Shown one piece after another: positions 5,232 to 30,772 of a stretch of DNA of 64,000 nucleotides (within the stretch, counting starts at the first letter, position 1; each line of letters begins with the position of its first letter). Made by a program: the position numbers and the translations under genes. Source of the stretch: Rhodococcus jostii NBRC 16295 (GTDB lineage Bacteria > Actinomycetota > Actinomycetes > Mycobacteriales > Mycobacteriaceae); NCBI RefSeq assembly GCF_001894825.1, contig NZ_BCWY01000032.1, positions 1 to 64,000 of the forward strand, written 5' to 3'. The notes under the pieces were generated by a model that made no database searches, was not told the origin of the DNA, and worked only from the letters and a program-made list of their open reading frames with translations.

Positions 5232-6827
5232 TCAGAAGATGAGCACGGACAGCGCGGTGGACAGGACCAGGCCCGACACGACGGGCACGAAACATTTCCG
5301 GGCCAGTTCGAGGACGGGCACACGGGCGAATCCGGCCACCGCGATCAACGACGACCAGGCGACGAGCGTTCCGCCGCCGGACCAGATGTTCCCCATCTGA
5401 CCGATCGCGGCGAGGGTGGCGGGGTCCATGCCCACCGCGGGCCCGAGCGCGCCGGCGAGTGAACCGGTGAGCGGCAGTCCGGTGAATCCGGAGCCTTCGA
5501 GGCCGGCGATCATGCCGATGGCGAGAATGCCGAACGACGTGACGAACGCGTTCTGCGGCAGGTGGGATTGTGCGGCGTTCACCAGGTCGAAGAGCAACGT
5601 CGGACCGGCCGCGTCCGCGGGGAGACCGAGAATGGCGGCGGAGAAATCACCGTTGCCGATGAAGAAGAAGCCGGCGATCGGGATCACGATGCCCATCGCC
5701 TTGAATGCGAAGACCAGGCCGTCGATGAGGTGCTCGGACGTTGTTTCGAGGAAGCCCTTCTTGTCGTTGGTCGCGGCAGCGGCGAACAGGATCAGTGCTG
5801 CGATGCCGCCCACCATCGCCGCCGCGTCGCCGCCCTTGAGGTCGGGCACGAGATCGGTGAACTTGCCGACCATGAGGTAGACGATGAATGCGAGATACGC
5901 GGTGGGCACGAGCACTGCAAAAGTCTTTGCCGCACGGATGCTCTTGAACGTGTCGTCGATGACCTGCCGCGCGGACGCCGTGACCGGTTCCGCCAGAACC
6001 GTCGACGTAGTGGTGGACGTCGTCGCGACCGCGCCGGTGGTGACGGCCGCCTCGGCCTCGGCCGGTCGCCGGTCGCTCGCACCGCCGCCGGTGGGCATCG
6101 AGTCGCCCTCGGGTGCGCTGCCACCGGGCTTGCCGAAGTCGCTCTCCGCGCGGGCCTCCCAATCGGTGAGCAGTTCCGGTGCCGGGCGGCGCATGTGCCT
6201 GCGTTGCGTGAAGTACGCGATGAGGAGCGCGGTGAGACCGACGATCAGGGACATCACCAGGGCGCGGTCCGCGACGACGTCCGGGTCGACACCCGCCGAC
6301 TTCGCCGACAGGCCCGGTGCCACCTTGATGATGTAGTCCGAGGACAGCGCCATTCCCTGCCCGCAGATGGCGATCGCCATGCCGACGGCCATCGGGGGAA
6401 GCCCGGCGCGAATGGCGACGGGAATCAGGACCGCCCCGATCAGGGGAACGGCGGGGGTGGGCCAGAAGAACAGCGAGATCGTGTAGGTGACGACGGCCAG
6501 CACGATGAAGCTGCTCGTGCCGCCGCGCATCACGCGCCGGAACGGGGCGACCATCAACCGGTCCGCCCCCATCTGCCGCAGTGCGCCGAGCATCGCCGTC
6601 ACCAACGAGATGATGAGGAAGATGTTGAACAGCTCGCGAGCAGCGACGAGGCTCGCGTTGAAGATCGACGCGAGACCGGTGACGAGGCTGTCGGAGAACA
6701 CGAACGCGGTCAGGAAGGTGCCGATGACCGCGGGGACGACGATGTTCTTCCGCATGAGCATCGTCCCGAGGATGACAATGATGCCCCCGAGATACACCCA
6801 GTGTGCGGCGGTGAGACTTACATCCAC
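5232..6827 (-). CDS. Large ion-transporter-like membrane permease
   Basis: Polytopic membrane protein of 531 aa with roughly 11-13 hydrophobic helices, interrupted near residues 215-280 by a hydrophilic, Ala/Thr-rich cytoplasmic loop. The paired halves with Gly/Pro-rich re-entrant segments (SLFFWPTPAVPLIGAVLIPV near 150; PQNAFVTSFGILAIGMIAG near 420) resemble the ion-transporter superfamily of carboxylate and gluconate permeases. I cannot name the substrate. A perfect FadR-type palindrome lies 26 bp upstream of its start, so control by a GntR-family repressor is likely. Confidence 0.7.
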   Translation of the reverse strand: MDVSLTAAHWVYLGGIIVILGTMLMRKNIVVPAVIGTFLTAFVFSDSLVTGLASIFNASLVAARELFNIFLIISLVTAMLGALRQMGADRLMVAPFRRVMRGGTSSFIVLAVVTYTISLFFWPTPAVPLIGAVLIPVAIRAGLPPMAVGMAIAICGQGMALSSDYIIKVAPGLSAKSAGVDPDVVADRALVMSLIVGLTALLIAYFTQRRHMRRPAPELLTDWEARAESDFGKPGGSAPEGDSMPTGGGASDRRPAEAEAAVTTGAVATTSTTTSTVLAEPVTASARQVIDDTFKSIRAAKTFAVLVPTAYLAFIVYLMVGKFTDLVPDLKGGDAAAMVGGIAALILFAAAATNDKKGFLETTSEHLIDGLVFAFKAMGIVIPIAGFFFIGNGDFSAAILGLPADAAGPTLLFDLVNAAQSHLPQNAFVTSFGILAIGMIAGLEGSGFTGLPLTGSLAGALGPAVGMDPATLAAIGQMGNIWSGGGTLVAWSSLIAVAGFARVPVLELARKCFVPVVSGLVLSTALSVLIF

Positions 6828-6852: not shown

Positions 6853-6869
6853 GACTAGTGGCACTAGTC
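6853..6869. promoter_or_regulatory. FadR/GntR-type operator (perfect palindrome)
   Basis: GACTAGT-GGC-ACTAGTC is a perfect inverted repeat 26 bp upstream of the permease start. Its core TAGTGGCACTA (6856-6866) fits the FadR-subfamily consensus T-N-G-T-N3-A-C-N-A. No GntR gene is adjacent; the nearest is at 17289. Confidence 0.5.
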
Positions 6870-7041
6870 ACAGTGCAGTGATAGTGCGCGGGGCGTTTTC
6901 CAGGGTCAACGTCCAGAGTGCACATCGATAACCAGCGTATTTGTGCATTGTGCCCGGCATTTTTCGCCAGGATTGCTTGTTGTCACGCACAAGTAAAGGA
7001 ATGCTCGACGGAAGCCATTTCTCGGAATGTTGCGTTCATAA

Positions 7042-7060
7042 TCAGGTTTGCCTAACCAAA
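7042..7060. promoter_or_regulatory. IdeR/DtxR-like iron box
   Basis: The 19 bp starting at 7042 (TCAGGTTTGCCTAACCAAA) match the actinobacterial IdeR consensus TTAGGTTAGGCTAACCTAA at 15 positions, including the AGGTT and CTAACC half-site cores. It lies 81 bp upstream of the MFS start, a position suited to iron-dependent repression. IdeR binding is inferred. Confidence 0.55.
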
Positions 7061-7140
7061 GTAATTTGGCGGGTGCGGCAGGGGTTCGCGGCGAGAACTG
7101 GCATCGCCGGAACACGAATTCTCGGACGAAAGCGGACTCT

Positions 7141-8523
7141 ATGAACACGGCGGTCGGTCAGGCTCGGATTGCATCCACCGGTGACGAACGCGGACCCGGC
7201 ACGTCGCCCGCACTGGCGGCGCTGCTGGCCGGAACCTTCGTCGGCACCGTCAGCAACAACATCGTCAACGTGCCGTTGAACGCGATCCTCACGGACTTCG
7301 ACGCCGGACTCGGAAGAGGGATCCTCGTCGTCGTCGGATTTCTCCTGACCTTCGCGGCGACGATGCCGCTGGCCGGATGGATCGGTGATCGGTTCGGTCG
7401 CCGGCGTGTCTACTGCGCCGCGTTGCTCGGCACCGCGGTCTGTTCCCTCGGCGCGGCACTCGCACCGTCGCTGCCGGTGCTCGTGCTCTGGCGGTCGCTC
7501 GGCGGAATCGCCGCGGCCGCGTTCGCGCCGGCCGTCATGGGCCTGATCGCGTGGCTGTTCGGGCCTGCGCGACGGGCGCGCGCCGTGGGCGCCTGGGCGG
7601 CGGTGAACGGGATCGGTCAGGCCGTGGGGCCGTCCATGGGCGGAATCGTCAGCGACTGGTGGGGCTGGCGGTGGGCGTTCGTGCCACTGGTCCCGGTGGC
7701 CCTGATCGGGTTTGCGGCGACCCTCCGCTACATTCCGCGGTACCCCGGCAAGAAGATGCGACTCGACGTGATCGGGGCGTCGACCATCACGCTCGGGGCG
7801 GTGCTGCTGATCCTCGGCATCACCACGGTCTCGCAGGACCAGATTCCCGTCTGGGCCAGAATCGCCACCCTCGGGGGCGGGGTCGTCGTCCTGGCCGGGT
7901 TCGTCCTCCATTGCCGGCGGACTTCGAATCCGTTCGTGCCCATCGACCTCGTAATCGAGTCGAGGTTCCTGCGGAGTGCGCTCGCCGCCTTCACCCAGAT
8001 GTTCGCTCTCGGAGCGGTGCTGCTGGCGCTGCCGCTCTACCTGACCGGCTCGGGCAGTTCGACGACGCAGGCCGGGTTGATGCTGTTCGTGCTGCCTGTC
8101 GTCATGACCTGCGTGGCGCCCGTCGTCGGGCGTCTCGTCGACAGGATCGGGGCCCGTGTGGTGATGCGTTCCGGTCTTGCCGTCCTGATAGGTAGTCAAG
8201 TGGCACTGGCGATCACGCTGTCCTACGGCATCCGGAATCCGTTCGCCGTCGGCGCGGTGCTCGTGGTGGCCGGAGTGGGAATCGGGATGGTCCAGACGCC
8301 GGCGGCCGCCGGTTCGACTCGATCGCCGGCGGGGGCGGTGGGAACGGGTCTGGGACTGTTCAACCTGATCCGGTTCGGCGGCTCGGCCGTCGGCGCCGCC
8401 TGGGTGGGCGTGGCGGCGCACCTGGCGGCCGATCCGTACGGACTGCTGTTCGCGGTGGCTGCCGTCGTCGCGCTGGCCGGATTGGCCGGGACATTCGTCG
8501 GTGCGGACCCGGTGGCCGCCTGA
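7141..8523 (+). CDS. MFS transporter (possible iron-regulated exporter)
   Basis: Major facilitator superfamily protein of 460 aa with about 14 predicted helices. MFS motif A (GWIGDRFGRRRV) lies in the first cytoplasmic loop, and TM5 carries a Gly/Pro-rich stretch (NGIGQAVGPSMGG) of antiporter type. These point to drug/metabolite efflux. ATG 7141 is chosen because the open frame upstream runs through the iron box. If IdeR represses the gene, siderophore export is attractive, but no siderophore synthetase gene is in the window. Confidence 0.8.
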   Translation: MNTAVGQARIASTGDERGPGTSPALAALLAGTFVGTVSNNIVNVPLNAILTDFDAGLGRGILVVVGFLLTFAATMPLAGWIGDRFGRRRVYCAALLGTAVCSLGAALAPSLPVLVLWRSLGGIAAAAFAPAVMGLIAWLFGPARRARAVGAWAAVNGIGQAVGPSMGGIVSDWWGWRWAFVPLVPVALIGFAATLRYIPRYPGKKMRLDVIGASTITLGAVLLILGITTVSQDQIPVWARIATLGGGVVVLAGFVLHCRRTSNPFVPIDLVIESRFLRSALAAFTQMFALGAVLLALPLYLTGSGSSTTQAGLMLFVLPVVMTCVAPVVGRLVDRIGARVVMRSGLAVLIGSQVALAITLSYGIRNPFAVGAVLVVAGVGIGMVQTPAAAGSTRSPAGAVGTGLGLFNLIRFGGSAVGAAWVGVAAHLAADPYGLLFAVAAVVALAGLAGTFVGADPVAA

Positions 8524-8525
8524 AG

Positions 8526-10217
8526 CTAGCGGGTCACGATCTCGTGGTTGACGGTGTCCTGCACCTGCGACAGCAGGTCGAGCCGAAGCGCCAGCCACAG
8601 GGTGAACTGGTTCTCGGGTTCCCGGATGTCCATGCCGATGAGTCGTGACGTGCGATCGAGCTTGGCGATCATGGTGTTCCGGTGAATCCGCAGGCGCCGC
8701 GCGGCCGCATTGATGTTGCCGCCCTCTTCGAGATAGGCGAAGAGCAACTCCTCGGTGTCGGCGTGCGAACCCGACGCCCGGAGGGGGCCGAGGACGTCCC
8801 GGATGAGTCGACGACTCTCGTCGGTGTCGGTCGCGCGGGCGAGCACACTGAACCCACGCAGCTCGTTGTAGGCCACCGAACCGGACAACCCGAGCCGCTG
8901 GGCGATGCCCAGGGTGATGCGGGCCTCGCGGTAACTCTCCCCGATATCGCGAGCGCCTGCCGCGGGACGGCCGTGGGCCACCGGAATCCGCTGCCCCAAC
9001 CTGGTTTCCAGATCGAGGGACATGGCGTGCGCGTACTCGCTGATCTCCGATTCGACCGCTGGTGCGTCGGCGGAACTCAGGGAGCGGATCACCACGAGCA
9101 CGTCTCCGATGACGGTGACGTGCGAACGGACATCCGGCCGGGGCAACACACCGGCGGCGTACCGCGCGAGCCGGACCATGCTCGCGCCGGGCCGTCCCGC
9201 CGCCCGGTCGACGAGACCGGGAGCGACGAAGACGATGTAGTGCAGATCCAGATCGATCTCGTGCAGTGCGGCCCGGGTGCGCAGGTCGTGGTCGTTGGCG
9301 AAGTTGCCGTGCACGAGGGCCTGGACGAAATCGCCGCGCGCCCGCTCCTCGGCCTCGTCCACGCTCCGCTGCCGGAGCATCTCGGTGCCGATGATCGTCC
9401 CCGCCTGCTCGACGACCACCCGGTGCTGCGCGATGTCGTGCCGGCGTGGATTCGCCCCGGGCACGACGACCACGACCCAGCCCTCGTAGCGGCCCGCGAG
9501 TTGCATGGCCCCGGCGACCGCGGTGGTGGGTGCGAACAGTCCGTCCGGATGCTCCAGTCGGATCACGTGAACGTTGTGCATCCGTGCCGGTGGTGATTCC
9601 TCGAGCCGCGGCAGCGCGTCCGCGAGAGCCTCCAGCAGGGCGACGGTGCCCGCCGCCTCGGCGTCCGGTAGACCGGCGTGGGCGAGAAGACGTCCCCGCA
9701 CGTCGAGGGCGACGGCGACGTCCGAGGTCAGAGCCGCGACCTCGCGAATCAGCATCGGCAGGCCCGCTCCGCGGTGCAGCAACCCCGCGAGCGACTGGTG
9801 CACGGTGAGGGCATAGCGCATCACGTGCGCTTCCTGGGTGAGTGCGCGCTCGGCGAGGAGTCGGTTGAGAGCGGTGAAACCGACGGGAAATCCCAGTTCC
9901 ACCACGGTGAGTCCGGTCGGCCAGACCGTGCCCGCGGGCGCCGACCCGTCGACGAGGAGAACGCCGGCGCCCCGCGCCACCAGCGACTCGAGTTCACGTC
10001 CGTGCGCGGACAGCGTTTCGGGCCGCGTGTACACGGCGACCTCGGCGAGGGAGTCGGGGCGGCTCATCACCTCCCCCCAGGGCAGGCACCACGTCACCGG
10101 CCCGCTCAGGGCATCCGTGCCCGACAGCAGGCGCGCCGACGCGAGCAGGGGTTCTTCCAGCAGGCCGCGTAACGACAATCGCTCGTCGTCCGCGTTCGGT
10201 GTCGTGGTGTCTTCCAC
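8526..10217 (-). CDS. PucR/CdaR family transcriptional regulator
   Basis: Regulator of 563 aa with an N-terminal PucR-type sensor region (about 20-150), a central GGDEF-like fold and a C-terminal helix-turn-helix (NINAAARRLRIHRNTMIAKL) of the HTH_30 type. The frame is open 54 codons further upstream, but GTG 10217 has AGGAGGGG 6 nt before it and the residues ahead look non-coding. It is divergent from the HbpS-like gene at the head of the catabolic cluster and is likely its activator. PucR proteins commonly govern nitrogen-compound catabolism. Confidence 0.85.
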   Translation of the reverse strand: MEDTTTPNADDERLSLRGLLEEPLLASARLLSGTDALSGPVTWCLPWGEVMSRPDSLAEVAVYTRPETLSAHGRELESLVARGAGVLLVDGSAPAGTVWPTGLTVVELGFPVGFTALNRLLAERALTQEAHVMRYALTVHQSLAGLLHRGAGLPMLIREVAALTSDVAVALDVRGRLLAHAGLPDAEAAGTVALLEALADALPRLEESPPARMHNVHVIRLEHPDGLFAPTTAVAGAMQLAGRYEGWVVVVVPGANPRRHDIAQHRVVVEQAGTIIGTEMLRQRSVDEAEERARGDFVQALVHGNFANDHDLRTRAALHEIDLDLHYIVFVAPGLVDRAAGRPGASMVRLARYAAGVLPRPDVRSHVTVIGDVLVVIRSLSSADAPAVESEISEYAHAMSLDLETRLGQRIPVAHGRPAAGARDIGESYREARITLGIAQRLGLSGSVAYNELRGFSVLARATDTDESRRLIRDVLGPLRASGSHADTEELLFAYLEEGGNINAAARRLRIHRNTMIAKLDRTSRLIGMDIREPENQFTLWLALRLDLLSQVQDTVNHEIVTR

Positions 10218-10315
10218 TACGAGCCCCTCCTCGGGTGACGTCGAAAGTGCAGTATGGCCCCGCGCTCGTCTGCGTTGCCTATGCACTATGCCCTGATATT
10301 CGAGTTTTCGCCGGA

Positions 10316-10395: not shown

Positions 10396-10842
10396 ATGCA
10401 TCAGGTTCACCGAATCACCCTCGACGACGCACTCCCACTGCTCGCCGCGGGACGCGCGAAGGCCGAGGAAATCGGCGTCAAGCAGACTCTCTGCGTCTGT
10501 GACGACGGCGGCAACGTGCTGGCCCTGCACCGACTGCCGGGTGCGCGCCTCACCGGCGTCGACATCGCGATCGCCAAGGCGTTCACTGCGGCCGGCCACG
10601 AGCGGGCCACCCACCTGTTCAACGAGGCGCCCGACGGGCCGGCGCTGCCCGGGAACGAAGCCTTCGGCATCAGCCAGATGCTGCCGGGCAAATTCGCGGT
10701 CTTCGTCGGCGGATTTCCCCTCGTCTTCGACGGCCAGATCGTCGGCGGAGTGGGCATCAGCGGCGGAAACGGCAAGCAGGACAAAGCGGTCGGAGCGGCA
10801 ATGCTGGCCGAGTTCGAGGCGCTCGCCGTAGTGCCCAGCTGA
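10396..10842 (+). CDS. HbpS/GlcG (DUF336) family protein
   Basis: Small protein of 148 aa in the GlcG/HbpS/PduO-C fold, recognised by the ITLDDALPLLAAGRAKAEEIG start, the DDGGNVLALHR turn and the Gly-rich C-terminal segment GQIVGGVGISGGNG. Some members bind heme or corrinoids; many sit in catabolic operons with unproven roles. It is the first rightward gene of the cluster and may be a cofactor-handling partner of the oxidase downstream. There is no signal peptide, so it should be cytosolic. Confidence 0.85.
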   Translation: MHQVHRITLDDALPLLAAGRAKAEEIGVKQTLCVCDDGGNVLALHRLPGARLTGVDIAIAKAFTAAGHERATHLFNEAPDGPALPGNEAFGISQMLPGKFAVFVGGFPLVFDGQIVGGVGISGGNGKQDKAVGAAMLAEFEALAVVPS

Positions 10843-10849
10843 TCGTCCG

Positions 10850-10874
10850 CGATGTGCCGACACTGTGCACATCG
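10850..10874. promoter_or_regulatory. 8-bp inverted repeat upstream of the diiron oxidase
   Basis: CGATGTGC (10850-10857) and GCACATCG (10867-10874) form perfect 8-bp arms with a 9-bp spacer, just after the HbpS-like stop and about 120 bp before the next start. It could be an operator (two helical turns between arm centres is close) or an RNA hairpin. Confidence 0.4.
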
Positions 10875-10994
10875 AAACCGTTGGAACACAGTCATTTCGA
10901 ACGTGGTCGCGACGATCGCGAGTCGGTACCGTCGAATTCACTCCAGTCGGAGCATCCCCATCCATTCCCATTCTCGAGGAAGACGAGGCACATC

Positions 10995-11714
10995 ATGACC
11001 GAACTTCTAGGCCGGGACGAATTCCGCACAGCCCTGGAGAACGCCATCAAGGGCCGCGAGGCGAAGAACGCATCGTTCAGCAAGGCGTGGGCCGAGGGCA
11101 AGCTCGAGAAGCACCACTTCGCACGCTGGGCGGAGAACCACTACCACTACGTCGGCCCCTTCGCCGACTACCTGGCGAACATCTACTCGAATACTCCCGA
11201 CACCTTCACCAATGCAAAGGATTTCACCCTCCAGAACATGTACGAGGAGGAGCTGGCCGACATCCGGCACACCGACCTCCTCATCAAGTTCGCCGAGGCG
11301 TGCGGCACCACGAAGGAGCGCGTCGAGGATCCCTCGAACATGAGCGCGATCACCCGCGGTCTGCAGTCCTGGTGCTACGCGGTGTCGCAGCGCGAGCACT
11401 TCGTCGTCGCCACCGCGGCGCTCGTCGTCGGACTCGAATCGCAGGTTCCCAGCATCTACAAGAAGCAGATCATCCCACTGCGCGAGGTGTACGGATTCAC
11501 CGAGGACGAGATCGAGTTCTTCGACCTGCACATCACGTCCGACGTCGTGCACGGTGAGCGCGGATACCAGATCGTGCTCGACCACGCGGACACGCCGCAG
11601 CTACAGCAGCGTTGCCTGCAGCTCGTGCAGTGGGGAGCCGAGATGCGCTTCTCGTACACGAAGGGGCTCTACGACACCTACGTGGCACCCGACCTCGAGC
11701 TCGCGACCGCCTGA
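10995..11714 (+). CDS. Heme-oxygenase-like diiron oxidase (HDO; TenA/CADD fold)
   Basis: Cytosolic all-helical protein of 239 aa in the TenA/PqqC/CADD superfamily. It shows the full HDO metal set with family spacing: Glu47, Glu85, His92 (7 apart), Glu148, and His179-Asp183-His186 (4 and 3 apart). TenA thiaminases and PqqC lack this set. HDOs use a non-heme diiron centre and O2 for N-oxygenation, desaturation, C-C cleavage or decarboxylation. The two Rieske proteins and the ferredoxin reductase downstream would supply electrons. ATG 10995 is chosen as the start; the frame upstream is open but non-conserved in character. The substrate is unknown; ALDH, RidA and GGT-family neighbours suggest an amine or amide. 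Confidence 0.8.
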   Translation: MTELLGRDEFRTALENAIKGREAKNASFSKAWAEGKLEKHHFARWAENHYHYVGPFADYLANIYSNTPDTFTNAKDFTLQNMYEEELADIRHTDLLIKFAEACGTTKERVEDPSNMSAITRGLQSWCYAVSQREHFVVATAALVVGLESQVPSIYKKQIIPLREVYGFTEDEIEFFDLHITSDVVHGERGYQIVLDHADTPQLQQRCLQLVQWGAEMRFSYTKGLYDTYVAPDLELATA

Positions 11715-11724
11715 GCGTGCGAAC

Positions 11725-11752
11725 GGAGGGGCCCGGGCGATCGGGCCCCTCC
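11725..11752 (+). terminator. Strong hairpin between oxidase and ferredoxin genes
   Basis: An 11-bp perfect stem, GGAGGGGCCCG (11725-11735) with CGGGCCCCTCC (11742-11752), has a 6-nt loop 11 nt after the oxidase stop. There is no U-tract. It may attenuate transcription or protect the upstream mRNA, so that oxidase outnumbers ferredoxin. Confidence 0.5.
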
Positions 11753-11785
11753 AGGCGCAGGCATCTCGCCCGACAGGAGAGAACG

Positions 11786-12142
11786 ATGGATACGAACTGG
11801 ACCCGGCTGGTCACCGTGCGTGAACTCGGCCGACGCCGGAAGCTTCGAGTCGAGGTCGGGGACACCGCGGTCGCGTTGTTCCAGGCCGACGATCGGATCT
11901 ACGCCTTTCGCGACCTGTGCGTCCATCAGGATCGGTCACTGGCGAAAGGCACCCTGCTGCACGGTCGCGTCATCTGCCCAGGTCACCAGTGGGCCTTCGA
12001 CCTCGACACCGGCTACGAGGAAGACCAGGACCTGTGCCAACCGACCTACGCGGTGAAGGTCGAGGACGACGTCGTCTACGTGGATCTCACCCGCAGCCCC
12101 GATTACGCCGAGACCGCGGCCTCGCCCGCCGAAGTCGACTGA
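11786..12142 (+). CDS. Rieske-type [2Fe-2S] ferredoxin (low-potential type)
   Basis: Soluble electron carrier of 118 aa. The cluster ligands are Cys45-X-His47 (CVHQD) and Cys64-X2-His67 (CPGH), the spacing of dioxygenase ferredoxins such as BphF, and it lacks the extra disulfide cysteines of bc1-type Rieske proteins. ATG 11786 follows AGGAGAG by about 5 nt. The ferredoxin reductase gene begins 16 nt downstream, so NAD(P)H to reductase to this ferredoxin to the diiron oxidase is the likely chain. Confidence 0.88.
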   Translation: MDTNWTRLVTVRELGRRRKLRVEVGDTAVALFQADDRIYAFRDLCVHQDRSLAKGTLLHGRVICPGHQWAFDLDTGYEEDQDLCQPTYAVKVEDDVVYVDLTRSPDYAETAASPAEVD

Positions 12143-12158
12143 GAGAGCGAGTGACACC

Positions 12159-13400
12159 ATGACGCTGAACACCATCGTCACCGTCGGCGCCGGCCAGACC
12201 GCCGCCGTTGCCGCGCGCACACTGCGGCGCCGAGGATTCGACGGCAGGATTCTGCTCGTCGGCGACGAACTGCACGCGCCGTATCAGCGCCCACCTCTGT
12301 CAAAGGAATTCCTTGCCGGGCAGGAGGACCGAGAATCCTTGATGCTCCTTCCCGACGCATGGCGCGAGAAACAGGACGTGGAACTCCTCACCGGAACCGC
12401 GGTGACCCGGATCGACTCGCAGGCCGGGGCGGTGGAATTGTCCGACGGACGGCGAATCTCGGCCGATGCCGTGCTCTTCGCGACGGGCGGGCGGCCGCGG
12501 ACGATGCCGGTGACCGGTTCGGCGCCCGAACGGGTGCACTACCTGAGAACGATCGACGACGCCGAGCGGCTGGCCGACGGGCTCCGCCCCGGCGCGCGGC
12601 TGGTGCTGATCGGCGGAGGATTCGTCGGGCTCGAAATCGCCGCTACCGCACGAACCCTGGGAGCCGAGGTCACGGTTCTCGAAGCGGACCCGGTGCCGCT
12701 CGCTCGTATCCTCGGACCCGAGATGGGCGAGGTCTGCACTCGGTTGCAGCGGGACAACGGAGTCACCGTCCGCGCCGGTGTGCGAGTCGACACCGTGACG
12801 ACGCGACCGGAAGACGTACTCATCACACTGGAGGGCGGAGAAGTGGTTCCGGCCGACGTCGTGGTGGTGGGAATCGGGATCGTCCCCAACGTCGAGGTCG
12901 CGCAGGCCTCCGGATTGGCAGTCGACGGCGGAATACTCGTCGACGCACAGGGCCGGACGTCGGTTCCGCACGTGTACGCCGCCGGCGACGTGGCAGCACG
13001 ATTCTCCGACGCGGCCGGCAGGCACGTGCGCGTCGAACACTTCGACAACGCGAGCAAGCAGGGCGCGGCGACCGCGAATCTGATGCTGGGACGCGTCGGT
13101 GTCGTGGACCCCGCCCACTGGTTCTGGTCGGATCAGTTCGGCAAGAACCTGCAGTTCGCCGGCACCGCCCGCTACACCGACCTGGTGTTCCGCGGCAGCG
13201 TCGACAACGGCGAGTTCACCGCCTTCTACATGGACGGCGGGGTGGTCCGCGGCGCCTTCGCGCTCGACCGTGGCGAAGAAATCAGTGCGGCAAGGGAACT
13301 GATCGGACGGTCGATCGAGCCGTCGCGGCTCGCGGACGAAGACGTCGACCTGTTCGACCTGATGGATGAAGACGACGAGGAACTGGTGACGGTGTCATGA
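12159..13400 (+). CDS. FAD-dependent NAD(P)H:ferredoxin reductase
   Basis: Flavoprotein of 413 aa in the BphA4/ThcD/rubredoxin-reductase family. The FAD motif is GAGQTA (residues 10-15), the family mark YQRPPLSKEFL follows near residue 44, the NAD(P)-binding motif LIGGGFVG is at 150-157, and VYAAGDVA contacts FAD near 270. It should reduce one or both Rieske proteins of the cluster. It starts at ATG 12159 and overlaps the aldehyde dehydrogenase gene by 4 nt (ATGA). Confidence 0.88.
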   Translation: MTLNTIVTVGAGQTAAVAARTLRRRGFDGRILLVGDELHAPYQRPPLSKEFLAGQEDRESLMLLPDAWREKQDVELLTGTAVTRIDSQAGAVELSDGRRISADAVLFATGGRPRTMPVTGSAPERVHYLRTIDDAERLADGLRPGARLVLIGGGFVGLEIAATARTLGAEVTVLEADPVPLARILGPEMGEVCTRLQRDNGVTVRAGVRVDTVTTRPEDVLITLEGGEVVPADVVVVGIGIVPNVEVAQASGLAVDGGILVDAQGRTSVPHVYAAGDVAARFSDAAGRHVRVEHFDNASKQGAATANLMLGRVGVVDPAHWFWSDQFGKNLQFAGTARYTDLVFRGSVDNGEFTAFYMDGGVVRGAFALDRGEEISAARELIGRSIEPSRLADEDVDLFDLMDEDDEELVTVS

Positions 13401-14839
13401 TCGAAGGACTCAATCTCGTCGACGGGCAGTGGGTCCCGTCGTCGTCCGGGGCGACGTTCGAGCGACGCAACCCCGCCGACCACGACGACGTGATCGGTGT
13501 GTTCCCCGATTCGACGGCGGCGGACGTGGATGCCGCCGTGAGCGCGCTGGCCAAGGCGGCGCCGCAGTGGGCGGCGACACCCCCGGAGCGCCGTGCCGCA
13601 ATCCTCGAGGCCGCGGCCGCGCACCTCGAGGCCCGGGCAGGCGAACTCGTCGACGAACTCGTCCGAGAAGAGGGCAAGACCCGCGCCGAGGCCACCATGG
13701 AAGTCGGTCGTACCCCGATGAACCTGCGTTTCTACGCCGGTGAGGCGCTTCGCACCACCGGCAGTACCTATCCCACCCCGGGCGACGGACTCGTCATCAC
13801 CCTGCGTGAACCCGTCGGCATCGTCGGAGCGATCACCCCGTGGAACTTTCCGCTCAACATTCCCTCACGCAAGCTCGGACCTGCTCTCGCGGCGGGAAAT
13901 GTCGTGGTGTTCAAGCCGTCCGAACTCACACCGCTGATGGGACAGCGTCTCGTCGAGGCGTTGCTCGCAGGTGGGCTTCCGGCCGGGGTCATCGCGCTGG
14001 TCCAGGGTTCCGGGCGGGCCGGAGCGGCAGTCGCGGCGGACGAGCGCATCGATGCCGTCACGTTCACCGGTTCCACCGCGGTGGGTCGCTCGATCCACGC
14101 GGCGGTCGGACCGTCTCGCCGCAGTCAGCTCGAGATGGGGGGAAAGAACCCCGTCGTGGTGCTCGACGACGCCGACGTGGACACGGCGGCGGCGCTGATC
14201 GTCAAGGGAGCCTTCGGGTTGTCCGGGCAGGCGTGCACGGGCACCAGCCGGGTGATCGCGGTGGACGAGATCCACGACCGGCTACTGGACCGCGTGGTGG
14301 AGCTCGCCGGAGGGATCTGCGTCGGCCCGGGCGCGGACCCGGGTGTGGAGATGGGTGCGCTGGCGAGCGCGGGGCAACTCGCGAAGTTCCTCGAGTACGT
14401 GCAGATCGGTCACGACGAAGGTGCCGAACTGGTCTGTGGCGGAGTGAGTCTCGACGAGAGGAACGGCTATTTCGCCGTCCCGACCGTATTCGCCGGCGGC
14501 AGACCGGACATGCGGGTGGTCACCGAAGAAGTGTTCGGACCGCTGCTGGTCTTCCTGCGGGCGTCCGGCTTCGAGGAGGCGGTCGCGCTGGCGAACGACA
14601 CGGAATTCGGCCTCAGTGCCGGAATCGTCACCAACGACGTGACCAGGGCCCTCGCGTTCGCCGGCCGGTCCGAATCGGGTCTGGTGAAGATCAACCAGCC
14701 CACCACCGGCATGAGCATGAACGCGCCGTTCGGCGGTTACAAGTCATCGAGCACCCAGACCCACAAGGAACAGGCAGGGGACTCGATGATGCAGTTCTAC
14801 CAATCCGAAAAGACCGTCTACCTCAGCCCTTCGGCCTGA
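13397..14839 (+). CDS. NAD(P)-dependent aldehyde dehydrogenase
   Basis: Cytosolic enzyme of 480 aa oxidising an aldehyde to the acid. The catalytic residues are Cys280 (GQACTG) and Glu246 (LEMGGK); the cofactor-binding segment TPWNFPLNIPSRKLGPALAAG and FTGSTAVG are present. Length and motifs suit a class-3-like/succinate-semialdehyde-type ALDH. ATGA couples it to the reductase. Its presence indicates that the oxidase pathway releases an aldehyde. Confidence 0.9.
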   Translation: MIEGLNLVDGQWVPSSSGATFERRNPADHDDVIGVFPDSTAADVDAAVSALAKAAPQWAATPPERRAAILEAAAAHLEARAGELVDELVREEGKTRAEATMEVGRTPMNLRFYAGEALRTTGSTYPTPGDGLVITLREPVGIVGAITPWNFPLNIPSRKLGPALAAGNVVVFKPSELTPLMGQRLVEALLAGGLPAGVIALVQGSGRAGAAVAADERIDAVTFTGSTAVGRSIHAAVGPSRRSQLEMGGKNPVVVLDDADVDTAAALIVKGAFGLSGQACTGTSRVIAVDEIHDRLLDRVVELAGGICVGPGADPGVEMGALASAGQLAKFLEYVQIGHDEGAELVCGGVSLDERNGYFAVPTVFAGGRPDMRVVTEEVFGPLLVFLRASGFEEAVALANDTEFGLSAGIVTNDVTRALAFAGRSESGLVKINQPTTGMSMNAPFGGYKSSSTQTHKEQAGDSMMQFYQSEKTVYLSPSA

Positions 14840-14868
14840 GACCTACCTGTCGACAGAGGGAGAAGACC

Positions 14869-15231
14869 ATGGAATTCACTCGCGTTGCGCGCTCCGGACA
14901 GGTTTCCGAAGGCATCGTGCGCCGCTTCTTCGCCGGCGAACACGAGTTCGCCGTGGCGCGCCTGAACGGGAAGGCCTACGCCACGTCGAACTACTGCACG
15001 CACCTGGACTGCCTGCTGTCTTCGGGGAAACTCGTCGACGACGGCATCGGATGCTCCTGCCACGGAAGCGTATTCGACCTGGAGACCGGCGAACCCGTGT
15101 GCCCGCCGGCGACCGTGGCCATCAAGACGTATCCGGTGGAGGAACGGGACGGCGAGATCTTCGTCGGCATCGATCCCGACGACACCAGTTCCATCCCGCG
15201 CCGGCGGGCCGCGCGGGGGTGCATGAAGTGA
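14869..15231 (+). CDS. Second Rieske [2Fe-2S] protein (bc1-like cysteine pair)
   Basis: Soluble protein of 120 aa. Ligands are Cys43-X-His45 and Cys62-X2-His65. It also has Cys48 (CTHLDC) and Cys64 (CSCHGS), which in bc1/b6f Rieske proteins form a disulfide that raises the redox potential, and Ser67 at the position that hydrogen-bonds the cluster. There is no Tat signal or anchor. It therefore probably works at a higher potential than the ferredoxin at 11786. ATG 14869 follows AGAGGGAGAAG. Its TGA overlaps the GTG of the next gene. Confidence 0.85.
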   Translation: MEFTRVARSGQVSEGIVRRFFAGEHEFAVARLNGKAYATSNYCTHLDCLLSSGKLVDDGIGCSCHGSVFDLETGEPVCPPATVAIKTYPVEERDGEIFVGIDPDDTSSIPRRRAARGCMK

Positions 15232-16820
15232 ACCCGCGACCGTCCACTCTCTCCGCCGACGGCATGGTCTCGTCCAGTCATCCCGCGGCGAGCACGGTAG
15301 GTGCGCGTGTGCTGGCCGACGGAGGCAACGCGATCGATGCGTCGCTGGCCATGGCCGCGATGACCTGGCTGACGTTGCCGGGACAGTGCGGGATCGGCGG
15401 TGACGCATTCGCCGTCGTTCGCGAACCGGACGGATCGGTGTGGACGGTCGGCGGCAGCGGCTTCGGTCCCGACGGCGGCGACGTGGAGTTCTACACCGAA
15501 CGCGGGTTGCGGACTATTCCGTTGGACGGGGCGCTGGCGGTGGCCGTGCCCGGAGCCCCGGCCGCCCTCGGCGCGCTGCACGCCGGTGGCGCGACCCGCT
15601 CGCTGGAAGATCTCTGGGCGCCTGCGGTGCGCGCGGCAGAGAACGGGCTGCCCTGCTCGGCCAAGACCCGTGAGGACGTGCGAGAAGCGCAGACCGCGAT
15701 CGCCGCCGACCCCGGACTGCGTGCGGTGTACCTCCCCGACGGCCGGTTGCCGCAGGTCGGGGAGTTGCTGCCGCAGCGCGACCTGGCCAGGTCGATCCGT
15801 TCGCTCGCGCGCGATATTCACGGCTTCTACACCGGCTCCTTCGCGCAGCGAGCCGTCGAGGCGCTGCGCGGCGGAGGGGCACCGTTCAGCGGGGAGGAGT
15901 GGGCGGCCGGCGCCGACGTGCGGGCGGAGGCCGCGATCAGCGGGCACTACGCCGGTGCGGTCATCCACCAGACTCCGCTGCCCACACCCGGATGGATGGT
16001 CCTCCAACAGGCGGCGCTGTGCGACGGCGTGGTGGGCTTCTCGCCGTGGCTCACCGCCCCGGCAGTCGATCGCATGGCGCGGGCCGCGCGACTCGCCTTC
16101 GAGGACCGGCTCGCGACCTGCGGTACCGGCAACGACGGGTGGAAGGCGGTGCTGGAGCCCGCAGCGGTCGGGGCGGCGAGAGCCCGGCTGGACGGCCACC
16201 GGGCGTCGTCGGGGGCCTTCAGCGTGACCGCCGGCGACACCACCTCGACAGTCGCGGTGGATTCCGAAGGCCGTGCCGTCAGTTTCATCCACTCGCTCGC
16301 CTTCACGTTCGGCGCGAAGACGACCGTCCCCGGCACCGGAGTGGTGCTGAACAACCGATACGGCCGCGGGGCCTACCTGATCCCGGGACATCCCAACGCG
16401 GCGGCGCCCCGCCGCAAACCGCTGCACACCCTCAACGCATGGGTGATCACCGATACGTCCGGGAACCTCCTGCACGTCGGCAACACCCCGGGCGGCGACG
16501 GCCAGGTGCAGTGGAACATGCAGCTGATCTCCCACCTGCTCGACCACGGACTCGGCCCGGCGGAGGCCGTCGCGGCGCCACGTTTCACGGTCTTTCCCGG
16601 AAGCGACGCCGATGTGGTCGGTCGCCCGGCGGAACTGCGGTGCGAGTCACGAGTGCCCGAAGAAGTGCGCAGTGAACTCCGGGCCCTCGGACACGACGTC
16701 ACACTGCAGGGGCCGTGGGCCGCAGGCGGAAGCGCTCAGATCATCTCGGTCGACCCCGGGCGCGGTCTGCTGTCCGGCGCCGCGGACCCTCGTCAGGAAG
16801 GAATCGCGCTCGGTGTCTGA
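15228..16820 (+). CDS. Gamma-glutamyltransferase family Ntn-hydrolase
   Basis: Protein of 530 aa in the GGT family, which self-cleaves before a catalytic Thr. The cleavage motif DTTSTVAVD gives Thr338 as nucleophile, and GTGVVLNNRYGRGAYL matches the oxyanion/LNN region. The start region SADGMVSSSHPAASTVGARVLADGG is typical. No signal peptide is seen, so unlike E. coli Ggt it should stay in the cytosol. It may hydrolyse a gamma-glutamyl amide or another amide in the pathway. GTG 15228 overlaps the Rieske stop (GTGA). Confidence 0.82.
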   Translation: MNPRPSTLSADGMVSSSHPAASTVGARVLADGGNAIDASLAMAAMTWLTLPGQCGIGGDAFAVVREPDGSVWTVGGSGFGPDGGDVEFYTERGLRTIPLDGALAVAVPGAPAALGALHAGGATRSLEDLWAPAVRAAENGLPCSAKTREDVREAQTAIAADPGLRAVYLPDGRLPQVGELLPQRDLARSIRSLARDIHGFYTGSFAQRAVEALRGGGAPFSGEEWAAGADVRAEAAISGHYAGAVIHQTPLPTPGWMVLQQAALCDGVVGFSPWLTAPAVDRMARAARLAFEDRLATCGTGNDGWKAVLEPAAVGAARARLDGHRASSGAFSVTAGDTTSTVAVDSEGRAVSFIHSLAFTFGAKTTVPGTGVVLNNRYGRGAYLIPGHPNAAAPRRKPLHTLNAWVITDTSGNLLHVGNTPGGDGQVQWNMQLISHLLDHGLGPAEAVAAPRFTVFPGSDADVVGRPAELRCESRVPEEVRSELRALGHDVTLQGPWAAGGSAQIISVDPGRGLLSGAADPRQEGIALGV

Positions 16821-17253
16821 GCAGGAATCCGTCGCGGCGGCCCCGCGACCCCAGGGCCGCTACATTCCCGCCGTCGTGCACGGCGGAATCGCCTACAGCG
16901 CCGGGATGACACCACGCCGCGGCGGTGAACTGACCGTCACCGGCATCGTCGGAAGGGACGTGGACATTCCGGAGGCCCGGGAGGCCGCAGGGTTGGCGGC
17001 GAGAAATGCGATCGCCGCCATTTCCGCGGCCGTCGGCGGCACGGCGGCCATCTCCCGTTGCCTGCGCATGAGCGTCTTCATCGCGTGTACGCGGGACTTC
17101 CACGAGCTGTCCGCGGTGGCCGACGGAGCGTCCGACGCGCTGGTCGAGAGCCTGGGATCAGAGGCTCTGCCGGTGCGCAGTGCGATCGGCGTGTACGCCC
17201 TGCCGTCCGGTGCGCCCGTGGAGATTGAGCTCACAGTGGCCGTATCTCCGTAG
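16813..17253 (+). CDS. RidA family (YjgF/UK114) protein
   Basis: Protein of 146 aa with the RidA chorismate-mutase-like fold. The Arg that binds the carboxylate of the imine is kept (PVRSAIGVYALPSGAPVEIE, near residues 126-143). RidA enzymes hydrolyse reactive enamines/imines to ketone and ammonia; divergent subfamilies occur in amine catabolic clusters. GTG 16813 lies 11 nt after AGGAAGG and overlaps the previous gene by 8 nt. Its presence supports an imine intermediate. Confidence 0.82.
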   Translation: MSEQESVAAAPRPQGRYIPAVVHGGIAYSAGMTPRRGGELTVTGIVGRDVDIPEAREAAGLAARNAIAAISAAVGGTAAISRCLRMSVFIACTRDFHELSAVADGASDALVESLGSEALPVRSAIGVYALPSGAPVEIELTVAVSP

Positions 17254-17288: not shown

Positions 17289-17942
17289 GTGTCTATGTTG
17301 TATTCCGCCGCGGAGCAGGCCTACCGCGAGGTCAAGGAGCTCATCCTGTCGGGCGGTCTGCCCGGCGGTGAACTGATCAGCGAGGGCGAGATCGCCGGAC
17401 GGATGGGCCTGAGCCGCACCCCCGTGCGCGAGGCCTTCCTCCGGCTCGAGGCCGAGGGTTGGATGCGGCTGTACCCGAAGCGCGGCGCCCTGATCGTGCC
17501 CGTCGCGGACGGCGAGGCGGAACACGTGGTCGACGCCCGGCAACTCGTCGAGACGCACAGCGTCCGGCTGCTCGCCGACCAGCCCCGCACCCGCGAACTG
17601 CTCGTTGCGCGCCTCCGCGAGAACCTCGTGGAGCAGCAGGAGATCGCGGAGCGAGGTGACGTCGCCGCGTTCAGCGCCGCGGACGCCGACTTCCATCGGA
17701 TGATCGTCGAGGCCGGGGAGAACCCGCTGCTCGCAACGTTCTACTCCAGCATCCGTGAACGGCAGCGCCGGATGACGGCCCACTCGATCACCCGCGATCC
17801 GGGCCAACTGCCCCGGATCATCGCCGACCACGAGAACTTGACCGAGCTCGTCGAAGCGGGTGACGCCGCCGGGTTCGACGCCGCGGTGCTCGTCCACATG
17901 CGGCAGGTCCACGCACTCAATCCGAGAGGAGTCGCGCGATGA
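17289..17942 (+). CDS. GntR family (FadR/FCD) transcriptional regulator
   Basis: Regulator of 217 aa with an N-terminal winged helix-turn-helix (SEGEIAGRMGLSRTPVREA, residues 34-52) and an all-helical FCD ligand domain with metal-binding-type residues (DADFHRMIVEA; HENLTELVEAGD). GTG 17289 is probably the first transcribed codon; ATG 17295 is the alternative. It overlaps the MFS gene by ATGA and likely represses the catabolic cluster and its transporter until the substrate appears. Confidence 0.87.
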   Translation: MSMLYSAAEQAYREVKELILSGGLPGGELISEGEIAGRMGLSRTPVREAFLRLEAEGWMRLYPKRGALIVPVADGEAEHVVDARQLVETHSVRLLADQPRTRELLVARLRENLVEQQEIAERGDVAAFSAADADFHRMIVEAGENPLLATFYSSIRERQRRMTAHSITRDPGQLPRIIADHENLTELVEAGDAAGFDAAVLVHMRQVHALNPRGVAR

Positions 17943-19276
17943 CCGTCGTCCGGGACAACCCCGCGGACACTGCCGTCGAGCCGGTGTCGTCGCCGCGGCA
18001 CTGGATGCTGGTGGCCGCGACGATGTTCGCGGTGGCGTGGGGCGGCAACGAATTCACCCCGCTGCTCGGGATGTACCGCACGGACCACGGCTTCTCGGCG
18101 GTGACCGTCGACCTGTTCCTGTTCGCGTACGTGCTGGGGATCGTCCCCGCACTGCTGCTCGGCGGGCCGTTGTCCGACCGCCTCGGGCGGCGTCCGATCC
18201 TGCTGCCCGCCCCCGTTCTGACGATCGTCGGGTCGATGCTGCTCGCGTTCGGCTCCGACTCGGCGGCCCTGCTGATCGTGGGACGCATCCTGTGCGGCGT
18301 CGCGCTCGGGCTCGGCATGGCCGTCGGCGGCAGCTGGGTGAAGGAACTGTCGACCGCGCCGTGGGATCCCGCCGCCACCGACGGCGCCGGCGCACGCCGG
18401 GCAGCGATGAGCCTGACCGGCGGATTCGGTCTCGGCGCGGGCGTCGCCGGTGTTCTCGCCCAGTGGGCGCCGCTGCCGAGCGTGCTGTCCTACGCCGTGC
18501 ACGGCGCGATCGCCATCGCTGCTGCGGTCGCGCTGTGGCGGGCCCCCGAGACCCGCACGGCCCAGCCCGTGTCCGAACGAGTCTCCCTCGTCCGCGACCT
18601 CGCGATCCCGTCCGCCTCCCACAAGCGGTTTCTCTTCGTGATCGCGCCGCTCGCACCGTGGGTGTTCGGGACGGCGGCCGCCGCCTACGCGGTGCTGCCG
18701 TCGCTGATGTCCGGCCACACCGGTGGGCTGCCTCTCGCGTTCTCCGCGCTCATGTGCATGGTCGGCCTCGGGGCGGGCTTCGCCATCCAGGCACTCGGTC
18801 GCAAGATCGACACGCCCCGCAACGCGCGCGCCGTCGTGGTGTCGCTCGTCTTCGTCCTCGCCGGAATGGTCGCGGCCGTCGTCGCGGCGTCCGCGCTGAC
18901 CGTTCCGCTCGCGCTCGTCGCCGCCGTCGTGCTCGGCTGCGGATACGGCATGGCCATGGTGTCGGGACTGCAGGAGATCCAGCGGATCGCGGGACCGGAC
19001 GACCTCGCCGGACTCACCGCGGTCTTCTACTCGCTGACGTATCTGGGATTCGGGACGCCCGTCGTGATGGCATACCTGTCCGAGACGTTCCCGGCGGTGA
19101 CGTATCCGAGAATGTTCGTCTTCGGCGCGGTCGCGGCCGCGGGATGCCTCGCGCTGGCACTCACCAAGTGGCGGTCGTACCTCCCGAACTCGGAGGTGAC
19201 GGCAGATCACATCGGTGGCAGCGTCTTCTCCCCGAGCCAGGAATCCCACAGCCGGCGCAGTGGTTCGTCGGTGTAG
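17939..19276 (+). CDS. MFS transporter, aromatic acid/sugar-porter type
   Basis: Twelve-helix major facilitator of 445 aa. Motif A (GGPLSDRLGRRPIL, near residue 75) and a large central loop are visible. It is coupled by ATGA to the GntR regulator, so it is probably the uptake system for the substrate of the catabolic cluster. Its last 70 nt overlap the convergent M1 peptidase gene, and the terminal 25-30 residues look unconserved. Confidence 0.82.
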   Translation: MTVVRDNPADTAVEPVSSPRHWMLVAATMFAVAWGGNEFTPLLGMYRTDHGFSAVTVDLFLFAYVLGIVPALLLGGPLSDRLGRRPILLPAPVLTIVGSMLLAFGSDSAALLIVGRILCGVALGLGMAVGGSWVKELSTAPWDPAATDGAGARRAAMSLTGGFGLGAGVAGVLAQWAPLPSVLSYAVHGAIAIAAAVALWRAPETRTAQPVSERVSLVRDLAIPSASHKRFLFVIAPLAPWVFGTAAAAYAVLPSLMSGHTGGLPLAFSALMCMVGLGAGFAIQALGRKIDTPRNARAVVVSLVFVLAGMVAAVVAASALTVPLALVAAVVLGCGYGMAMVSGLQEIQRIAGPDDLAGLTAVFYSLTYLGFGTPVVMAYLSETFPAVTYPRMFVFGAVAAAGCLALALTKWRSYLPNSEVTADHIGGSVFSPSQESHSRRSGSSV

Positions 19277-24629: not shown

Positions 24630-25331
24630 ATGTACTACCTGGCATTGCTGGCGGACGAGAAGAACGCCACCGAATGGGCACCGGACAGTCCGGAGTTCGC
24701 GGTGGCCGTTGCGCGCCACGAGGCGTTCACGGAGAGTGCGGGCTCCGCGATCGTCGGAGGTGGTGCGCTGTATCCGAGCGCGGAGGCGGCGACCATCCGG
24801 AACGAGGACGGCCGCGCGCTGATCACGGACGGTCCGTTCGCGGAGACCGCGGAGGTGGTCGGCGGTTTCTACGTCCTCGAGGGACCGGACCTGGACGAGG
24901 TGCTCACTGTCGCGCGGCACATCCCCGAGGCGATCATCGAGTTGTGGCCGATGTTCGAGTGGATGCCCGTGACCGATCAGAAAGGTTGCTGGATGGCGCT
25001 GCTCCGCGAACCGGTGGCGGCGGCGGTGGCGCCGGGCACACCCCAGTGGGACGAGGGAATGGCCGAGCACGAGAAGTTCGGTCGGCTCGCCGGGGCCGCG
25101 GTGCGTGGCGGCGGAGCCCTCTATCCGCCGGACTCCGCGACGACGATCCGCGTTCGCGACGGGGAACTTCTGCTCACCGACGGCCCCTTCGCCGAGACAG
25201 CCGAGGTCGCGAACGGTCTGTACGTGCTGGCTGCCGACGACCGGGAGAGTGCGATCGCGTTGTCGGCGAAGATCCCGGTGACGCCGAAAGGCTGCATCGA
25301 ACTCCGGCAGATCGTCGGCTACGCCGAGTAA
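24630..25331 (+). CDS. DGPF (YciI-related) domain protein, tandem
   Basis: Protein of 233 aa made of two YciI/DGPF domains; the signature TDGPFAETAEV appears twice, near residues 70 and 180. DGPF proteins accompany ECF42 sigma factors across actinobacteria; their biochemical role is unknown. ATG 24630 follows GAGGAAGG. Its stop overlaps the sigma factor start (TAATG). It may modulate the sigma factor's C-terminal extension or be its main target. Confidence 0.85.
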   Translation: MYYLALLADEKNATEWAPDSPEFAVAVARHEAFTESAGSAIVGGGALYPSAEAATIRNEDGRALITDGPFAETAEVVGGFYVLEGPDLDEVLTVARHIPEAIIELWPMFEWMPVTDQKGCWMALLREPVAAAVAPGTPQWDEGMAEHEKFGRLAGAAVRGGGALYPPDSATTIRVRDGELLLTDGPFAETAEVANGLYVLAADDRESAIALSAKIPVTPKGCIELRQIVGYAE

Positions 25332-29206: not shown

Positions 29207-29235
29207 CGGTGAATCTCCCTTCGGTTCGTGTCGTC

Positions 29236-30753: not shown

Positions 30754-30772
30754 CACGTCCTGTTGAGTACCG

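Follow-up and report, generated by a model that had tools for sequence, protein, structure and literature searches.

Aromatic ring dioxygenases, bacterial multicomponent monooxygenases and MocDEF are built on a Rieske ferredoxin and a flavin adenine dinucleotide (FAD) reductase. About a dozen heme-oxygenase-like diiron oxygenases (HDOs) have been functionally validated according to the available part of one source (PMC13108848), and in the accessible portion of another the pair MboA/MboB of mangotoxin biosynthesis, in which an NADH-linked redox partner is dedicated to the HDO, is perhaps the first such pair to be characterised (PMC13185094). In this study, we analysed a 64,000-nucleotide stretch of Rhodococcus jostii NBRC 16295 (contig NZ_BCWY01000032.1, positions 1 to 64,000, from a 9.7 Mb assembly in 286 contigs; hereafter the window), which encodes an HDO within a cluster of eight genes. 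MboA/MboB is the nearest precedent. However, MboB is a single flavin/Fe2S2 reductase from a peptide biosynthesis cluster, as the same accessible portion has it (PMC13185094), whereas the window encodes two Rieske ferredoxins and a separate reductase among catabolic-type enzymes. These electron-transfer modules are of the same kind as those of Rieske-ferredoxin multicomponent oxygenases, although they score below equivalog cut-offs and serve a locus with an HDO-fold oxygenase and two different Rieske ferredoxins. We read the locus, with a probability of about 0.6, as a four-component oxygenase that acts with downstream enzymes to catabolise an anionic nitrogen-containing carbon source, a reading in which we infer both substrate and chemistry.

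The eight genes occupy positions 10396-17253, all on the plus strand, and are overlapping or narrowly spaced. Open reading frame (ORF) starts were checked, with gene starts picked by overlaps and ribosome-binding sites. Families were assigned with curated Pfam cut-offs, which all eight proteins exceed for the family named, and with NCBIfam equivalog cut-offs. A preliminary description of the sequence had proposed these eight co-directional genes, and they are present with the families it named and with catalytic residues intact:

10396..10842, plus strand: DUF336/HbpS-like protein (PF03928, 111 bits)
10995..11714, plus strand: HDO (Haem_oxygenas_2, PF14518, 121 bits, cut-off 28.9)
11786..12142, plus strand: Rieske ferredoxin 1 (PF00355, 54 bits; CxH...CxxH)
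12159..13400, plus strand: FAD ferredoxin reductase (Pyr_redox_2, 236 bits, and Reductase_C, 74 bits)
13397..14839, plus strand: aldehyde dehydrogenase (ALDH; Aldedh, 495 bits)
14869..15231, plus strand: Rieske ferredoxin 2 (PF00355, 65 bits)
15228..16820, plus strand: N-terminal nucleophile (Ntn) amidohydrolase of the gamma-glutamyltransferase (GGT) fold, by its residues probably not a gamma-glutamyl enzyme (G_glu_transpept, PF01019, 290 bits)
16813..17253, plus strand: Rid protein, nearest to the Rid1 subfamily (Ribonuc_L-PSP, PF01042, 49 bits)

To compare the locus with its relatives, we searched a collection of 84,980 species with the HDO by tblastn and took the best 80 of 507 relatives, each with at least 80% HDO identity. 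Three loci from a plasmid collection (two from Cupriavidus, one from Caballeronia) brought the mapped set to 83. Gene presence was scored by the single best tblastn match per gene, residues were counted over 84 loci wherever the gene was found, and gene order was compared in the 62 of the 80 loci that span at least 18 kb, leaving out the 18 shorter ones. The order HDO, Rieske 1, reductase, Rieske 2 on one strand was found in 62/62 long loci, a count that is valid for close relatives only, because of how the loci were selected. The co-occurrence of the oxidase with both Rieske genes, which the preliminary description had put forward as a check, is borne out in these loci. Around the four redox genes the whole set takes 17 arrangements, the commonest accounting for 36 of the 62, and the ALDH gene lies between the reductase and Rieske 2 in 48 loci, elsewhere in 13 and was not found in one. 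Tight linkage of redox genes amid rearrangement is the expectation for a multicomponent enzyme, and a four-component oxygenase is probably the best reading of the redox core.

The HDO is assigned to the HDO superfamily by family model, ligands and fold, and diiron O2 activation is predicted for it. It has a set of three histidine and three carboxylate ligands, E85, H92, E148, H179, D183 and H186 as positioned by alignment to CADD, in 84/84 loci. Five structure models reached predicted local distance difference test (pLDDT) values of 84, 81, 71, 49 and 37. The best model has the seven-helix heme-oxygenase-like fold, with CADD (8va9) as the top Foldseek match (template modelling scores, TM, 0.79/0.87), followed by PqqC, UndA, HrmI and BesC. 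By sequence, the top matches in the PDB are 4-aminobenzoate (pABA) synthases, CT610 and PqqC. CADD/PabS is thus the closest solved HDO by both sequence and fold, with six identical ligands. CADD sacrifices its own Tyr and Lys, according to the available part of the source (PMC13108848). In the window's protein, CADD Tyr27 and Lys152 are replaced by Ser29 and Gln158, as they are in 84/84 loci, and we therefore do not regard it as a pABA synthase of the CADD kind. It also stays under the cut-offs of the CADD/PabS model TIGR04305 (95.6 bits against 200) and the PqqC model TIGR02111 (46 bits against 240). Residues and model scores together rule out assignment as a pABA synthase or PqqC.

The electron carriers adjoining the oxygenase, a CxH...CxxH ferredoxin and an FAD reductase, are arranged as in Rieske ferredoxin-dependent multicomponent oxygenases. 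Each of the four ligands of Rieske 1 is kept in 80/81 loci, and the four ligands of Rieske 2 are kept in 75/75. The two ferredoxins share 26% identity and resemble HcaC/AndAb, under the NCBIfam equivalog cut-offs, while the top NCBIfam model for the reductase is HcaD (371 bits, cut-off of 450 not reached). The oxygenase is an HDO, neither Rieske-mononuclear nor ferritin-like. Judged by these family assignments, the system would act like a Rieske-ferredoxin-fed oxygenase yet falls outside both classic oxygenase types.

We paired the window with each of six loci and compared substitution rates. The nonsynonymous rate (Ka) of the HDO was 0.03-0.11 in the five pairs that are further apart, against 0.17-0.41 for the reductase, ALDH, GGT-fold hydrolase and Rid protein. 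The DUF336 protein, which was not found in one pair, gave a similar 0.03-0.11 in the other four. The synonymous rate (Ks) varies less and tends to be lower for the HDO and DUF336 genes (0.63-0.65 vs 0.84-1.07 in locus L091), with some genes saturated in L127. Ka was lower for Rieske 2 than for Rieske 1 in 6/6 comparisons. Across the long loci, the HDO has a median identity of 91%, the DUF336 protein one of 89% (58 loci) and the reductase one of 57%. With Ka and identity near those of the HDO, the DUF336 protein does not look like a casual passenger. Its EfgA-type Lys, Ser and Asp are kept in 72/72 loci. EfgA, itself a DUF336 protein, is a formaldehyde sensor, as described in the available part of PMC8153426. 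Most likely, judging from these sequence comparisons, the DUF336 protein is a close partner of the oxygenase that deals with a reactive aldehyde intermediate.

The cluster is conserved as a unit beyond chance, and the unit extends past the eight genes. Among the 83 loci, the HDO was found in 83, Rieske 1 in 80, the reductase in 79, ALDH in 77, Rieske 2 in 74, PucR in 72, the first major facilitator superfamily (MFS) transporter (MFS1) in 71, DUF336 in 71, Rid in 68, the GGT-fold hydrolase in 67 and the transporter at 5232 in 66. The preliminary description had framed the eight genes with PucR and GntR regulators and an MFS importer. PucR holds its place, whereas GntR (7/83) and the downstream MFS (4/83) are local neighbours, which we rejected as parts of the cluster. 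Its eight genes are real, and the set is larger than it supposed, with MFS1 and the 5232-6827 transporter as further members:

8526..10217, minus strand: PucR-type regulator (HTH_30 and GGDEF_2; start placed by its ribosome-binding site, longest ORF to 10379)
7048..8523 (longest ORF), plus strand: DHA2-type MFS transporter, MFS1 (MFS_1, 170 bits)
5232..6827, minus strand: predicted transporter with an SLC13/INDY-like fold in its predicted structure
17295..17942, plus strand: GntR/FCD regulator, local neighbour
17939..19276, plus strand: MFS transporter, local neighbour

Presence in the window's own family is patchy. Among 251 sampled genomes of that family, the HDO occurs in 26, and the DUF336 gene and the 5232-6827 transporter each occur in the identical 26, although these are non-independent events because the genomes are related to each other. 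A GGT homologue is present in 27, namely those 26 and G134, a genome of the same genus. In the stretch fetched from G134 (L171, contig C1 5289-6992), the eight genes are reduced to a GGT homologue of 82% identity and the 3' terminus of Rieske 2, and flanking genes are retained at both sides. This locus is a deletion remnant of the cluster, and gain or loss affects the gene set as a whole.

The best 80 of 507 relatives come from Rhodococcus, Mycolicibacterium, Gordonia, Nocardia, Streptomyces, Actinomadura, Pseudonocardia, Amycolatopsis, Nocardioides, Blastococcus and others, including some metagenome assemblies, and the nearest named HDO relatives among them are Rhodococcus records. Proteobacterial spread is known from plasmid-collection records only. 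That collection gave seven HDO matches, four in Cupriavidus, two in Caballeronia and one in Azospirillum, of which three loci were looked at; the Azospirillum match is an annotated pqqC with 24% identity. Clustering of ORFs also revealed a DUF1275 membrane protein in 33/83 loci, often adjoining the transporter (for example L099 2524-3252 and L162 8099-8851), and none was seen in the window's own cluster. As further recurrent neighbours, the scan gave a sulfatase with a relative of its modifying factor, as well as an amidase, a peptidase and a TerC protein. It showed neither a carrier nor a ligase or synthetase among the recurrent neighbours covered, which leave out six ORF clusters of 8-9 loci each. 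One recurrent ORF cluster, number 12, was discarded as a gene, being antisense to DUF336 in 18/18 cases.

The transporter at 5232 had no sequence match in Pfam, NCBIfam or the PDB, PDB profile search included. Since the profile search gave no lead, we predicted the fold, and the model matches NaDC3, NaDC1, INDY and DiT1 of the SLC13/DASS group. The SLC13/INDY-like predicted fold of this conserved transporter suggests that the imported substrate is anionic. The amine or amide substrate favoured by the preliminary description now appears less likely than an anionic nitrogen-containing compound. A second 5232-type transporter is present in several genomes, and in three loci (L110 and L122 of Mycolicibacterium, L133 of Actinomadura) this copy stands beside an amidase-signature protein. 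In one genome (G214:C2:42978-44645), a transporter homologue is interrupted and appears as two fragments.

Both divergent promoter regions contain a candidate PucR site:

10248..10258, plus strand: candidate operator copy 1, TGCAGTATGGC, exact motif match
10282..10292, plus strand: candidate operator copy 2, TGCACTATGCC, exact motif match, 34 bp from copy 1
6867..6877, minus strand: candidate operator, TGCACTGTGAC, between the 5232 and 7048 genes, one mismatch to TGCASTATGVC
6944..6954, plus strand: candidate operator, TGCATTGTGCC, between the 5232 and 7048 genes, match to the widened motif

TGCASTATGVC occurs twice in the window with no mismatch, at 10248 and 10282 between pucR and DUF336. 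Its core TGCASTATG recurs at the 34-bp spacing in 8/12 loci (L086, L087, L088, L089, L127, L032, L033 and L036, of which L087 and L032 are one contig), as a single copy at that place in L103, L038 and L092, and not in L097. The widened motif TGCAnTRTGnC has five exact matches in 64 kb vs 0.39 expected, and the two divergent promoter regions account for four of these. As a candidate operator at both promoters it is a lead.

Downstream of the redox core, the ALDH matches 2,5-dioxovalerate dehydrogenase best among NCBIfam models (509 bits, under the cut-off of 750), and its catalytic Cys is present in 77/78 loci. The 15228 protein had been described as a GGT-family Ntn-hydrolase. The fold and the nucleophile (Thr338, in 67/68 loci) stand, and the gamma-glutamate-binding residues are lost. 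Arg, Asp and Ser-Ser, with their segments, bind gamma-glutamate in GGTs. In the hydrolase, the Arg falls in a gap when aligned to a Bacillus-type GGT, and segments NNRxGRG and PLHTLN take the place of NNExxDF and PLSSM of solved GGTs. It scores 220 bits against TIGR00066 (gamma-glutamyltransferase), under the cut-off of 358. Its nearest solved small subunit is 5hft_B (83 bits), which we take to be oxamate amidohydrolase HpxW, an enzyme of purine breakdown; the nearest large subunit is not that of HpxW and belongs to a different protein, 2i3o. With the gamma-glutamyl segments replaced and 5hft_B as nearest small subunit, a GGT-fold amidohydrolase acting on an acid, and no gamma-glutamyl enzyme, would be the better reading of its sequence. 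A gamma-glutamylation pathway is ruled out by the lost binding residues, and no gamma-glutamyl ligase was found among the neighbours scanned.

The Rid protein matches PA0814 best in the PDB (96 bits). In the available part of PMC5619798, PA0814 is a Rid1 protein that speeds imine hydrolysis from several amino acids in vitro, and Rid1 proteins hydrolyse 2-imino acids in vitro. The Arg equivalent to RidA Arg105, a mark of imine-hydrolysing Rid proteins in what is accessible of PMC4433059, is kept in 68/69 loci. For the conserved Glu there are two candidate positions, Glu137 (66/69, the other three outside the alignment) and position 139 (Glu in 36/69).

Distant versions of the cluster show which parts can change. 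The three betaproteobacterial loci keep the HDO (66-71% identity), ALDH (46%), DUF336 protein (53-58%) and transporter (47-50%), and tblastn gave no match there for Rieske proteins, ferredoxin reductase, GGT or Rid. Instead, all three encode a BenC-like reductase (207 bits vs a cut-off of 430) and a pair of related ORFs for Fer2-type ferredoxins, which share 31-39% identity with each other. The swap of two Rieske proteins and a reductase for two Fer2 ferredoxins and an unrelated reductase points to a required electron supply via two carriers, and the sequences argue that module parts, the two ferredoxins included, were exchanged for functional analogues. An ornithine cyclodeaminase (OCD)/mu-crystallin relative, ketimine-reductase-like, is present in 3/3 of these loci. 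As it stands where Rid has no match, and both kinds act on 2-imino acids, a 2-imino acid intermediate is suggested. The genes around the Cupriavidus locus, which encode regulators, a transglutaminase, an AAA ATPase and proteins of the PhyH and MFS types, gave no clue to the substrate. A distant actinobacterial locus, L173 (G281), has the HDO (75%), one Rieske match, GGT (30%), DUF336 (49%) and ALDH (50%), and appears from these matches to be a differently assembled version of the cluster. It also holds a luciferase-like monooxygenase and an MFS protein.

Taken as a pathway, the substrate would enter through the 5232 transporter. Electrons would pass from NAD(P)H to the FAD reductase (12159), on to the Rieske ferredoxins (11786 and 14869) and from there to the HDO (10995), which would activate O2 on the imported substrate, perhaps with the DUF336 protein as partner handling a reactive aldehyde. 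The product would bear or become an aldehyde for ALDH (13397) to oxidise, a remaining or newly made amide bond could be cut by the GGT-fold hydrolase (15228), and a 2-imino or enamino acid may be hydrolysed by the Rid protein (16813). PucR would govern both divergent promoters via the TGCAnTRTGnC site. The aldehyde, imine and amide steps anticipated by the preliminary description are consistent with the intact residues and with the ketimine-reductase-like protein of the betaproteobacterial loci, and we infer their chemistry and order from these.

For the HDO step itself, our tentative guess is the opening of an N-heteroaromatic carboxylate ring, by analogy with the ring-opening pathways of pyridine, trigonelline and 2-aminophenol. 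Like these and uracil (Rut) catabolism, the cluster would follow a logic of ring opening and then ALDH, amide hydrolysis and Rid-type deamination. The ring-opening enzymes of those four pathways are flavin-dependent or extradiol-type oxygenases, and we know of no HDO, DUF336 protein or Rieske chain in any of them. Rather doubtful is the wider proposal of a new class of multicomponent oxygenase in Actinomycetota and some Betaproteobacteria that opens N-heteroaromatic carboxylates with an HDO, two ferredoxins and an obligatory DUF336 protein.

The same genes could be read in other ways. Instead of opening a ring, the HDO could cleave an N-substituted amino acid at a C-N bond, an oxidative N-dealkylation of an iminodiacetate- or betaine-like compound, with ALDH clearing the aldehyde and the Rid protein or OCD homologue taking the imine. 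An anion transporter fold, ALDH, an imine-handling protein and the aldehyde-associated DUF336 protein would suffice for this, and the betaproteobacterial version holds little more among the genes identified, but the GGT-fold hydrolase of 67/83 loci and the amidase beside the second transporter copy would be left without a role, and we consider it unlikely. Amino or fatty acids are the main substrates of characterised HDOs in the available part of the source (PMC13108848), and BesC and HrmI are among our fold matches, so the HDO might oxidatively decarboxylate or fragment an amino acid, yielding an amide or alkene in the manner of biosynthetic HDOs, with the hydrolase cutting the amide. Yet the redox partners are invariant in 62/62 long loci and MboAB is perhaps the first such pair, which suggests a reaction of another kind and makes fragmentation seem quite unlikely.

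A role of the cluster in biosynthesis or detoxification, with export of its product through the DHA2-type MFS, would accord with known HDOs, which are mostly biosynthetic according to the same available part (PMC13108848). MFS1 is indeed efflux-pump-like (EmrB subfamily, 159 bits, under the cut-off of 230), which fits export or detoxification. Nevertheless, we hold this improbable: the scanned neighbours include none of the carriers, ligases or synthetases of biosynthesis, the uptake-type transporter fold, ALDH, Rid protein and amidohydrolase indicate breakdown, and presence is patchy. That a pABA synthase or PQQ enzyme sits by chance beside unrelated genes is hardly credible; the top PDB sequence matches would fit it, but the replaced Tyr and Lys, the sub-threshold model scores and the gene linkage all contradict it.

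Several results besides the efflux-like MFS1 weigh against the catabolic four-component oxygenase that we prefer. Neither fold nor residues give a clue to which ferredoxin feeds the HDO, or separate hydroxylation, desaturation, N-oxygenation and cleavage. In L173, tblastn found no reductase match. Some of the 62 long loci gave no match for one gene or another (GGT in five, ALDH in one, DUF336 in four, Rid in two and the transporter in 10), and the betaproteobacterial loci indicate that the GGT and Rid steps are not universal. ALDH identity among the long loci falls to 38%, so that another ALDH may serve at low-identity loci. The Foldseek TM values of the transporter model are modest, at 0.34-0.60 in the ten best matches. 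The operator is a lead because the motif's degeneracy was widened after the sequence had been inspected, and the fifth widened-motif match lies inside the hydrolase gene. EfgA-type residues are largely kept across DUF336 proteins, in the available part of PMC8153426, and being so widespread they do not imply aldehyde binding.

The preliminary description had regarded this combination of O2-using and catabolic-type enzymes as unassigned, and we likewise found no matching pathway and no earlier description of the gene set among the matches listed in open-access full-text literature for the set and for its parts, as judged by titles and the openings of abstracts, a coverage outside which most subscription papers fall. 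Literature on homarine catabolism held no such operon among the matches listed. In many soil bacteria this HDO is accompanied by a dedicated electron-carrier chain, and the two apparently serve to break down a nitrogen-containing acid; such catabolic capacity is probable in Rhodococcus, Mycolicibacterium, Gordonia, Streptomyces and others. If so, HDOs would extend from mostly biosynthesis into catabolism. Were the N-heteroaromatic reading true, the cluster would contain the first HDO of catabolism, open rings by a new chemistry and give a DUF336 protein its first enzymatic role. With an HDO linked to two ferredoxins and a reductase, the electron supply of HDOs can be tested directly. The cluster also provides a DUF336 protein with a partner open to testing and draws attention to a transporter family that lacks a sequence-family assignment.

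Genome G000 encodes a second HDO-family protein (G000:C36:26642-27172; L056 8571-9836, minus strand), a 421-aa ORF with 180 bits to PF14518, whose gene adjoins wax ester synthase/DGAT and glycosyltransferase family 20 genes. Elsewhere in the window, a carbon-nitrogen hydrolase ORF of the nitrilase superfamily lies beside a cytosine/purine/allantoin-type permease (27585-30801, minus strand), a candidate for a second catabolic pair for nitrogen compounds. A 1296-aa ORF (20520-24410, minus strand) appears by eye to combine an adenylation domain, a membrane part and a hexapeptide-repeat-like C-terminus; next to it lies an M1 peptidase that four other loci also have alongside the cluster. A sigma-70-like ORF with a DUF6596 domain is located at 24674-26566 on the plus strand.

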